Made by a program: the position numbers and the translations under genes. A stretch of 64,000 nucleotides of DNA from Candidatus Dormiibacterota bacterium (GTDB lineage Bacteria; Vulcanimicrobiota; Vulcanimicrobiia; Vulcanimicrobiales; Vulcanimicrobiaceae): positions 124,001-188,000 of the forward strand of contig DATKRS010000029.1 of NCBI GenBank assembly GCA_035532035.1, read 5' to 3'. Shown here piece by piece: positions 17,556 to 61,393 of the stretch (position 1 is its first letter; the number at the start of each line of letters is the position of its first letter). Under the pieces are notes generated by a model. That model searched no databases. It saw nothing but the letters and a program-made list of their open reading frames with translations, and was not told the DNA's origin.

Positions 17556-17719
17556 GCCTTTCCACACCTGTGGACAAGCCTGTGGAAAGCCCGCTTGCAA
17601 GCACCCCCTGCCGTGCAGCGCAAAGCCTTGTGGGCTCTGGCTTCGAACGCAATTATCGATGGCATGGAAATGTTGTTTTCGATGCCCGGAAAAGGCCGGA
17701 AAATGGTCGTTATTCACCC

Positions 17720-17728
17720 TGTGGATAA
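17720..17728 (-). promoter_or_regulatory. Perfect DnaA box
   Basis: TGTGGATAA on the plus strand is TTATCCACA on the minus strand, the exact high-affinity DnaA box. It lies 135 bases before the dnaA start, where it could serve both initiation and dnaA autoregulation. Confidence 0.85.
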
Positions 17729-17862: not shown

Positions 17863-19209
17863 ATGGCGGCGGTGGCGATTGGAAATGCAGGGATCTCGAA
17901 CGAGCTCTGGCAGACCGTCCTGGACGCCCTCGACCGCAAGTTCACGAAGCCGGTTTTCAACATGTGGCTCAAGCCTATGCGGCCGGTCGCGCTCGACGGA
18001 ATGGAGCTGACGCTCGCGGTTCAAAACGCCTTCGCGCGAGACTGGTGCGAGAACCGACTGAAAACCGACATCACCGATGCCATCCGCGACGCGCTGCAAA
18101 TCCCCGTCGATCTCCAATTCGTCATCGCCGATGCGTCGGCGCCGCATACGCTGGGCCCGGTACGCGGAAGCGAAGAGTTGCGCCCGGGTAATCTCAACGG
18201 TCGGTATACCTTTGAAGAGTTCGTCGTCGGAGCGTCCAATCGGTTCGCGCACGCTGCGGCGCAAGCAGTAGCCTGCACGCCGGGGAAAGCATACAATCCC
18301 CTCTTCCTCTACGGTGGCGTCGGGCTGGGCAAAACGCACTTGATGCACGCCATCGGTCGTCGCGTGCTCGTGGACAATCCGAACGCAAACGTGCTTTACG
18401 TCTCATGCGAAAAGTTCACCAACGAGTTCATCATCGCGCTTCAGAACAACCGTACGCCGGAGTTCCGCAAAAGCTACCGGCAAGTCGACGTATTGCTCAT
18501 CGACGACGTGCAGTTCTTGGCCGGCAAGGAAACGACGCAAGAAGAGTTCTTCCACACCTTCAACGATCTCCATAGTTCCGGCCGTCAGCTCGTGCTCTCG
18601 TCGGATCGGCCGCCCAAAGACATTCAGACGCTCGAAGCGCGGCTGCGTTCGCGGTTCGAGTGGGGCCTTCAAACGGACATCCAGGCCCCGGACCTCGAGA
18701 CGCGCGAGGCGATCCTTCGCAAGAAGGCGGAGAGCGAAAACATTCCCGTGCCCCACGATGTCACGTCGTTCATCGCAAAAGTCATCCCTTCGAACATCCG
18801 CGAGCTCGAGGGCGCTCTCATCCGCGTCGTTGCGTACGCGTCGTTGACCAAGGCGCCGATCACGACCGATCTCGCAGCTGAAGTGCTCAAGAGCGCCGTC
18901 GCCCAAGCGCCGCTCCAGCGCGTTACCATCGCGAAGATCAAAGAAACCGTTGCCGGCGCGTACGGTCTTACCGTCAAGGAAATGGATAACGGCCGCCGCG
19001 ATCAGCGTCTCGCTGGCCCCCGGCAGATCGCCATGTACATCGCAACGACCCTAACCGATTACTCCTTGCCGCAGATCGCGCGCGATTTCGGCAAGAAAGA
19101 TCATACGACGATCATGTACGCGCGCGACAAGATCAAAGACCAGATCGAGCGCGACGAAGCCTACCGCAACAAAATCGTGCAGCTGATGGCGCTGTGTCAA
19201 ACATCGTGA
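17863..19209 (+). CDS. dnaA: Chromosomal replication initiator DnaA
   Basis: 448-residue AAA+ initiator. Domain I is residues 10-85 (LWQTVLDALDRKFTKPVFNMWL), domain III has Walker A GGVGLGKTH (151-159) and Walker B LLIDDVQF (211-218), and domain IV carries the DnaA-box signature DHTTIMYA (413-420). Domain II is very short. I use the ATG at 17863, preceded by GGGAGAGTGAG; a TTG at 17815 would add 16 unconserved residues. The gene lies between two DnaA-box-bearing gaps. Confidence 0.97.
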   Translation: MAAVAIGNAGISNELWQTVLDALDRKFTKPVFNMWLKPMRPVALDGMELTLAVQNAFARDWCENRLKTDITDAIRDALQIPVDLQFVIADASAPHTLGPVRGSEELRPGNLNGRYTFEEFVVGASNRFAHAAAQAVACTPGKAYNPLFLYGGVGLGKTHLMHAIGRRVLVDNPNANVLYVSCEKFTNEFIIALQNNRTPEFRKSYRQVDVLLIDDVQFLAGKETTQEEFFHTFNDLHSSGRQLVLSSDRPPKDIQTLEARLRSRFEWGLQTDIQAPDLETREAILRKKAESENIPVPHDVTSFIAKVIPSNIRELEGALIRVVAYASLTKAPITTDLAAEVLKSAVAQAPLQRVTIAKIKETVAGAYGLTVKEMDNGRRDQRLAGPRQIAMYIATTLTDYSLPQIARDFGKKDHTTIMYARDKIKDQIERDEAYRNKIVQLMALCQTS

Positions 19210-19444
19210 CTCACCTCGTGCCCACAGAGGTGGTCTTGGCAGCGTGGATAACAACGCACGTCGATGCGAACAGTGGAGAACAGGAAGATCGGTGCATACT
19301 CGTACACATGATGTGCCGGCCGCAAACGTATGCGTAACGGCAACTCTCCCGCTTTCCCACAGATTACACCGCTCTACTACTGCTACTACTACGTTAGTAA
19401 ATTACTAACGACGGCACGATACACGCTCTAACGATCGGTGGAAG
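19210..19444. other. dnaA-dnaN intergenic region with candidate unwinding element
   Basis: 235 bases. A near-perfect DnaA box CGTGGATAA is at 19243-19251 and a weaker TTTCCCACA at 19353-19361. From 19374 to 19391 there are six CTA/CTG triplets in a row (five CTA and one CTG), and 19393-19409 is an AT-rich inverted repeat GTTAGTAA-A-TTACTAAC. A box, a short spacer, CTA triplets and an AT-rich segment in this order resemble the DnaA-trio basal unwinding system described in Bacillus subtilis. The region must also hold the dnaN ribosome site; GGTGGAAG precedes the ATG directly. Confidence 0.7.
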
Positions 19445-20560
19445 ATGAAGTTCACCTGTAATACCAAGGACATCGCGACGGCCGTCGGCGCTGCAAGCAA
19501 GATCGTGAACGTCCACACGACGGTTCCGATATTGTCGAATGTTCTGCTGCAGTCCGAAGACGGCCGCGTGGTCGCTCGCGCAACGGATCTCGAGCTCACG
19601 CTCGAGCTGGCATTTCGGGCGGACGTGGCCGAAGGCGGCGCGGTGACGGTTCCGGCGAAGCTTTTTTCGAGTTATCTCGGGAACTTACCGGCGGCGCAAC
19701 TGGAGTTGAACGGGACGCCGACGCGCGCGAGCGTGAAATGCGAGCGAAGCAACTATGATTTTCACGCGCTGCCTGCGGAGGAGTATCCGCCGCTTCCGGC
19801 GGCCGCACGCGGGTCGCAGTTCACGATGTCGGCGAAGCGCTTTCGCGAGGCGGTGGAATCGACGATTTTTGCGGCCTCGAACGAGGAGGCACGGGGAGCC
19901 GTGTTGATGGGAACGTTGCTCGAGGTGAGCGGCGGCGCCCTGACGATGATCGCGACCGACGGCTATCGCCTGGCAAAGCACCGCACGACGCTCGATGAGG
20001 GAATCTCGGGCGAGGAGCGGTACATCGTACCCTCGCGGGCTCTCTCAGAAGCTGCGCGTAACTTCGGCAGCGCCGAGAGCATCGCAATCGGAGCGCTCGG
20101 AGCTGCCGGAAATCAGCTACAGCTCTCGGCCGGAGACGTCTCAGTGACGGTGCGGCTCGTCGACGGACAGTATCCGAACTACCAACAGGTCATACCGGCG
20201 AAGTTCGATCGACGCGTCACGGTGAACACTGCGAGCTTGATTGCGGGATTGCGCAGAGCCGAGCTCGTCGCCGGCGACCGCGCCTCGATGGTGAAGCTCG
20301 CCATCGCGAACCAGACGCTCGTGGTTACGGCGAGCTCCGACATCTCCGGGAATGCGTACGAGGAGATCGAGGTCGAGCAGCAAGGTGAGGATCTCACGAT
20401 CGCGTTCAACGCGCGCTACCTGATCGACATCCTCAATCACGTCAAGGGACCGCGTACGGTCATGGAGTTCTTGGGGCCGCTCTCACCCGCTGCGATCCGG
20501 CCTGCAGAAGGCGATACCGGCGTCGAACAGCTCTACGTTCTGATGCCGCTTCGGCAGTGA
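19445..20560 (+). CDS. dnaN: DNA polymerase III beta sliding clamp
   Basis: 371 residues, three clamp domains. Recognisable are the N-terminal VPILSNVLLQ segment, ATDLELTLE, ATDGYRLAKHR in the middle domain, VDGQYPNYQQVIPAKF and the C-terminal YVLMPLR, which forms part of the protein-binding groove. It tethers the polymerase and recruits repair factors. The start is ATG 19445 with GTGGAAG upstream. It is followed by recF with a 4-base overlap. Confidence 0.97.
   Translation: MKFTCNTKDIATAVGAASKIVNVHTTVPILSNVLLQSEDGRVVARATDLELTLELAFRADVAEGGAVTVPAKLFSSYLGNLPAAQLELNGTPTRASVKCERSNYDFHALPAEEYPPLPAAARGSQFTMSAKRFREAVESTIFAASNEEARGAVLMGTLLEVSGGALTMIATDGYRLAKHRTTLDEGISGEERYIVPSRALSEAARNFGSAESIAIGALGAAGNQLQLSAGDVSVTVRLVDGQYPNYQQVIPAKFDRRVTVNTASLIAGLRRAELVAGDRASMVKLAIANQTLVVTASSDISGNAYEEIEVEQQGEDLTIAFNARYLIDILNHVKGPRTVMEFLGPLSPAAIRPAEGDTGVEQLYVLMPLRQ

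Positions 20561-21662: not shown

Positions 21663-21669
<7 letters not shown>
20557..21669 (+). CDS. recF: DNA replication and repair protein RecF
   Basis: 370-residue SMC/ABC-like ATPase that helps load RecA at gaps with RecO and RecR. N-terminal LSNFRNYTHLELEPQPGLNVFIG leads into Walker A GANAQGKSN (30-38); the C-terminal LLLLDDLLSELD is the D-loop/Walker B region with the ABC signature shortly before it. The GTG start overlaps the dnaN stop (GTGA at 20557-20560). The recR partner is in this window at 54.0 kb. Confidence 0.95.
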
Positions 21670-24403
<2,734 letters not shown>

Positions 24404-61281: not shown

Positions 61282-61393
61282 GGCACAGAGTATTCGCGCT
61301 CCACTGTGAATTCCGTGTGGATAAGCCGAAGAACTTGCGAACGACGTGTGGACGACAAGGGAGGCCGGACGGCCCAAGCAGCAATTGCGCCCG
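61282..61393. promoter_or_regulatory. M48-minC divergent intergenic region with DnaA box
   Basis: 112 bases. A perfect DnaA box TGTGGATAA is at 61316-61324 and TGTGGACGA (7 of 9) at 61347-61355, both in the same orientation, spaced 31 bases start to start (about three helix turns). No unambiguous -10 element was seen. Confidence 0.6.
61316..61324 (-). promoter_or_regulatory. Perfect DnaA box in the minC promoter region
   Basis: TGTGGATAA on the plus strand, identical to the box before dnaA. It lies 70 bases before the minC start. Confidence 0.65.

Follow-up and report, generated by a model that had tools for sequence, protein, structure and literature searches.

How DnaA finds and opens the chromosome origin is a central question in bacterial DNA replication. 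A close described counterpart is the basal unwinding system (BUS), the strand-opening core of the Bacillus subtilis origin, where the top strand 5'-CTACTATTACTTCTACTA-3' presents six triplets (PMC10201434). In the B. subtilis structure two captured bases of each trio enter a pocket of the DnaA oligomer, and the amino group of the central adenine meets Asn187; a central cytosine retains nearly full activity in vitro and performs above guanine or thymine in vivo, both of which lower activity, and the requirement falls mainly on trios 1-3 (PMC10721633). The same paper suggests that different sequences may serve other DnaA proteins (PMC10721633). Whether natural origins ever place a base other than adenine at the captured position was not settled by the 2023 structure. 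The search of Pelliciari et al. 2021 tolerated at most two mismatches in the DnaA-box and four in a second, optional box, allowed a spacer of up to 16 nt (peak at 10-13), and required at least three NAN trios (PMC8287927). Under this last requirement cytosine-centred trios could not be recognised as such, and in a May 2026 review the motif is still NAN (PMC13220808).

We analysed a 64,000-nucleotide stretch of an Eremiobacterota genome (the window) that carries dnaA and dnaN. The gap between the two genes contains the following elements, in window coordinates.

19353-19361, plus strand: first BUS DnaA-box, TTTCCCACA, with two mismatches to TTATCCACA; position conserved in relatives.
19362-19373: 12-nt spacer between the first box and the triplets, GATTACACCGCT.
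19362-19370, plus strand: degenerate second DnaA-box, GATTACACC, abutting the first; family consensus GAATACACC, with the core CAC conserved.
19369-19373, plus strand: short GC-rich element CCGCT before the trios, sharing its first two bases with the end of the second box.
19374-19391, minus strand: six DnaA-trios; bound strand 5'-TAG TAG TAG CAG TAG TAG-3', top strand CTACTACTGCTACTACTA.
19392-19410: AT-rich palindrome CGTTAGTAAATTACTAACG, a perfect repeat with 9-bp arms; not conserved.

A first-pass annotation had described a weak DnaA-box, a 12-base spacer and six CTA/CTG triplets, and direct reading (CTA CTA CTG CTA CTA CTA on the top strand at 19374-19391) proved this exact to the base. 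With no more than two mismatches and a distance of 12 nt from the trios, TTTCCCACA satisfies the published BUS box rule (up to 16 nt); all six trios are adenine-centred on the strand that DnaA is inferred to bind, where at least three are called for. A search of the 64-kb window for (CTR)x6 gives a single hit, even with one mismatch allowed, and none in 100 dinucleotide shuffles of it; the six-triplet run is also the only one in the 2.25-Mb genome. The spacer had been called not especially GC-rich. Its length stands, but it is not featureless, as it consists of GATTACACC followed by GCT and thereby holds a degenerate second box and a short GC-rich element, in agreement with the published model. 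The second box has five mismatches to the consensus in the window genome and four in its common family form GAATACACC, at a conserved position, while CCGC(C/T/A) is kept adjoining the trios, as CCGCC or CCGCA in most relatives.

The wider surroundings have the features of a chromosome origin.

17569-17577, minus strand: DnaA-box TTGTCCACA, in the upstream box cluster together with five two-mismatch boxes.
17720-17728, minus strand: perfect DnaA-box TTATCCACA in the rpmH-dnaA gap.
17863-19209, plus strand: dnaA, the initiator (Pfam Bac_DnaA, 4.7e-73).
19243-19251, minus strand: upstream DnaA-box TTATCCACG.
19432: minimum of the cumulative GC skew of the 258-kb contig (contig base 143,432), inside the dnaA-dnaN gap.
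19445-20560, plus strand: dnaN, the sliding clamp (DNA_pol3_beta), downstream flank of the origin.
21663-22505, plus strand: dciA, helicase loader/operator of DnaD-less bacteria (Pfam DciA, 8.3e-19).
61316-61324, minus strand: isolated perfect DnaA-box TTATCCACA, far from the origin; a possible regulatory or titration site.

Cumulative GC skew was calculated over the full 258,417-base window contig and sampled in two relatives. On the window contig it falls steadily (mean skew -0.023) and then rises (+0.019), with the minimum 41 nt past the trios, between dnaA and dnaN. With a size of about 2% the skew is weak, and in relatives it is noisy; in the two sampled the sign change agrees only loosely. 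The gene order is dnaA-dnaN-recF-dciA-gyrB, a run typical of origins, with dciA between recF and gyrB, three genes downstream of dnaA. The presence of dciA in the origin run of a phylum sample without DnaD may be useful for studying the handover from DnaA to DciA. DnaA-boxes cluster in both gaps flanking dnaA: the rpmH-dnaA gap holds seven (up to two mismatches) in 407 nt, compared with 0.23 per 400 nt elsewhere in the window, and 30 of 44 family members have a GTGGA(T/A)AA box at a distance of 120-139 nt on the upstream side of the array. Because of the box cluster upstream of dnaA, the origin is probably bipartite, as in Bacillus. Directly before the dnaN start (19430-19447) a CGGTGGA motif is strongly conserved in relatives; it could be a site for ribosome binding or, read as TCCACCG on the opposite strand, a DnaA-box-like site in convergent orientation.

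To follow the element through the phylum, arrays were collected from dnaA-dnaN gaps. DnaA was detected in 73 of the 78 genomes considered, which comprise that of the window and its relatives. From one class, 60 arrays were aligned without gaps by their distance from the CAC of the second box, with those of L029, L033 and L042 positioned manually. Only the boxes and triplets 1-2 entered the anchor rule; triplets 3-6 played no part in the choice of frame and are therefore free evidence. Two dnaA loci without an array were excluded: L012 (genome G039), where dnaA is not followed by dnaN and the gap has no trio array, and L047 (G043:C11), a second full-length dnaA copy without adjoining dnaN. Since L012 has no array, the origin of G039 may have moved elsewhere; another genome, G077, gave three matches to DnaA.

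In the 60 Eremiobacterota genomes box, spacer and triplets are conserved; the palindrome is not. T or G occupies the top-strand centre of triplets 1-6 in 59/59, 59/59, 57/59, 57/59, 58/59 and 55/59 arrays (100, 100, 97, 97, 98 and 93%), and from triplet 7 onward in only 47% (28/59), 54, 49 and 56%. The array is six units long, since the T/G rule drops after triplet 6. Exceptions include CCG as trio 3 in G023 and G027 and a shifted frame in G040. C predominates at the first triplet position, triplets 1 and 4 apart, and A or G at the third. In trio 4 the first base is free (C, A, T and G are all common), set against a nearly fixed C in trios 2, 3, 5 and 6; the first base of B. subtilis trio 3 is likewise odd.

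A pattern fixing only the boxes and triplets 1-2 was then run on 117 genomes of the class. It found 56 sites in 55 genomes, and the reversed control found none; a second site in G087 was judged off-target by eye and removed before counting. Among 24 further distinct arrays, every central base of triplets 3-6 is T or G, against 46% at triplet 7. These arrays share genera with the first set, and their independence is incomplete.

The DnaA encoded in the window keeps the trio-contact residues to be sought in a cognate DnaA: compared with the B. subtilis protein (PDB 8btg), N187, I190, R202 and E228 are identical and I193 is replaced by L. The arginine finger is kept in Eremiobacterota DnaA. Taken together, the order, orientation, spacing, location, skew minimum and conservation support the proposal of the first-pass annotation that this is a strand-opening site. 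Both tests that it had set, conservation of the triplets in relatives (60 Eremiobacterota arrays and 24 further) and a skew minimum near 17.4-19.4 kb (found at window 19,432 on the 258-kb contig), were passed. We hold with high confidence that the Eremiobacterota element is a BUS and forms the core at which the strands of the chromosomal origin are opened, with DnaA binding, base capture and origin use inferred; it is very probably where this bacterium opens its chromosome to begin copying, the opening itself again being inferred.

The annotation had also pointed to a 17-base AT-rich inverted repeat after the trios. This palindrome, GTTAGTAAATTACTAAC at 19393-19409, is real, and the perfect repeat extends to 19392-19410; it is private to the window genome and no conserved part of the system. 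A regulator acting on dnaN or on initiation might bind it, as its perfect 9-bp arms and the failure of all 200 shuffles of the same stretch to reach it would allow, but it is absent from relatives, same-genus genomes included, and is not repeated elsewhere in the genome, even when up to three mismatches are allowed. In the family, too, the stretch behind the array shows no excess of inverted repeats (4 of 44 members at p<=0.05), and we regard a regulator site as very unlikely. On the lack of a second copy and of family enrichment, the palindrome was rejected as a functional part. What the family shares is only the AT-richness of the post-array stretch (63% AT).

The T/G rule on the top strand has a consequence for the trio motif, since a G at the top-strand centre pairs with a cytosine on the strand bound by DnaA. 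Cytosine-centred trios, one or more per array, occur in 54 of the 60 arrays, and in 19 of the 60 the array does not begin with three adenine-centred trios. One natural array, CTA TTA CGA AGA TGA CGA in G066, is mostly cytosine-centred. The cytosine-centred variant, a point that the first-pass annotation did not raise, is seen in relatives only, since the window array has none. Within the limits of these sequences, the central base on the presumed DnaA-bound strand is A or C across the phylum, with G or T very rare. The count of cytosine-centred trios correlates weakly and positively with third-codon-position GC (Spearman 0.33, p 0.01), as expected if GC pressure has only the permitted route from A to C.

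Substitutions were placed on the DnaA protein tree. About 45 central changes were reconstructed: T-G 36.3, C-G 3.7, A-G 2.7, T-C 1.6 and A-T 0.7. In the 27 nt after the array the counts are T-G 46, C-T 115 and A-T 225, and within the triplets position 1 changes mainly between C and T and position 3 mainly between A and G, the usual transitions. The excess of central T-G transversions over T-C transitions is the reverse of ordinary substitution, and it is the pattern that amino-group chemistry predicts, since A and C share an amino group. Taking the post-array proportions as the null, the naive binomial probability is near 5e-30; relatedness and reconstruction error make this figure overstated, and the direction is clear.

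A period of three could also reflect coding. A leucine-rich leader peptide upstream of dnaN would account for CTA, CTG and TTA as synonymous codons and for transitions at positions 1 and 3, but an in-frame start is missing in 18 of 60 genomes, in-frame stops fall inside the array in 12 of 60, there is no common reading-frame length, and the frequent T-G changes at position 2 would mean Leu-to-Arg. The leader peptide is scarcely credible, and was rejected on the missing starts, the in-frame stops and the lack of a shared frame length.

An A/C rule on the DnaA-bound strand and a T/G rule on the top strand are inseparable by sequence alone, and our choice of strand is inferred from the B. subtilis structure. 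The constraint could come instead from a reader of the single-stranded top strand, such as a helicase-loading factor. T and G are both keto bases, so that such a reader could impose the same rule, and in B. subtilis DnaD recognises TnnT in the strand that pairs with the trios, reading precisely the central thymines (PMC10201434). Against such a reader, no DnaD/DnaB_2 domain (PF07261) was matched in 41 genomes, with control matches in B. subtilis and L. lactis, and G breaks TnnT. DciA is present, but to our knowledge it has no sequence-specific single-strand binding. The window array does contain TnnT; with DnaD not found, it does not qualify as a DnaD-recognition element. We consider a top-strand reader improbable. 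DnaD recognition in particular was disfavoured as the cause of the central-base constraint, given no DnaD domain in 41 genomes. The evidence favours DnaA as reader of the central base, because DnaD needs TnnT and was not found in the 41 genomes.

Cytosine-centred trios were also sought in other lineages, using Paenibacillaceae and Negativicutes samples drawn from genomes around loci L104 and L120, the two lineage names being those of these central loci. In 85 distinct Paenibacillaceae arrays, triplets 3-5 have a central T or G in 253 of 255 cells, and 37 of the 85 contain a cytosine-centred trio, which may lie inside the array (for example CTA CTA CGA CTT CTA CTA); seven matches without an array, one of them the sole match in G194, had been removed by eye. 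Each of the seven distinct Negativicutes arrays has a cytosine-centred trio. In an actinobacterial class the tandem-box pattern gave one plausible site (that of G131 itself) in 119 genomes, and an acidimicrobial locus (L159) has CCC as its apparent third triplet, which counts against a universal rule. Bacillus, Paenibacillus, Planococcus and Clostridium loci mostly have the window's distance of 12 nt from first box to first trio, and the arrangement of box, 12 nt and CTA recurs in Bacillus and Paenibacillus.

These arrays bear on whether all six triplets are trios. The element could be an ordinary adenine-centred BUS with three or four real trios, the later G-centred triplets of relatives being a different conserved signal. 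The first two trios are almost always T-centred, class-level relatives (f3) are G-centred at most triplets from the third onward, and B. subtilis itself relies mainly on trios 1-3 (PMC10721633). Yet exchanges between T and G recur at the same positions and in the same phase, the A/C-only rule stops sharply after six triplets, the B. subtilis trio number (PMC10201434), and in Paenibacillaceae cytosine-centred trios precede adenine-centred ones within the array. A shorter array is therefore unlikely, though of the alternatives considered it deserves the most weight.

We instead propose, with a probability of roughly 0.75, that the trio definition be widened to 3'-N(A/C)N-5', with natural cytosine-centred trios in at least three lineages, in which A and C interchange and G and T are avoided. 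This reading includes the use of cytosine-centred trios in Eremiobacterota, where they predominate in one group, in Paenibacillaceae and in Negativicutes, and it takes the substitution record as a natural trace of base capture by DnaA through the amino group. In the mechanism we envisage, DnaA would bind the tandem boxes as duplex DNA, and an ATP-dependent DnaA oligomer would be fed onto the bottom strand, one trio per protomer, with the central base flipped into the pocket. All six trios would be used, recognition through the amino group common to A and C would explain an A/C-only centre, and the AT-rich stretch beyond the trios would be opened. DciA is, by inference, the likely helicase-loading partner after opening.

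If so, evolution would supply an answer to the question left by the structure: A and C interchange, and G and T are nearly shut out, within a six-unit array. As far as we searched (subscription papers and the 2016 trio paper were not covered), no description was found of an A/C-only six-unit array with frequent natural cytosine-centred trios. The N(A/C)N motif finds opening sites in GC-rich uncultured phyla that the NAN rule overlooked, and the natural arrays make the amino-group model directly testable.

Compared with known systems, the Thermotoga maritima DUE with its eTrio has the same single-strand TAG repeats bound by DnaA oligomers; in that origin the essential repeats are separated from the trios annotated next to the boxes, whereas the window has one uninterrupted array adjoining the boxes (PMC10316083). 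Predicted BUS elements share the order of box, spacer and trios, their common spacer range of 10-13 nt includes the one found here, and 3'-GAT-5' is likewise the commonest trio beside the boxes (PMC8287927). The B. subtilis BUS (incC, DnaA-boxes 6/7 and six trios) occupies the same dnaA-dnaN gap, with tandem co-oriented boxes (the second degenerate in the window), a spacer that is short and GC-rich, six trios located on the same strand and an AT-rich stretch after them, and the trio-contact residues of DnaA are conserved between the two. The differences are that the first box is weak in the window (two mismatches) and a consensus box in B. subtilis; that the boxes abut in the window, whereas in a Bacillus relative the second overlaps the first by one base; that the Eremiobacterota sample, unlike B. 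subtilis, lacks DnaD and has DciA; and that in Eremiobacterota relatives, unlike the B. subtilis BUS, the central adenine is often replaced by cytosine.
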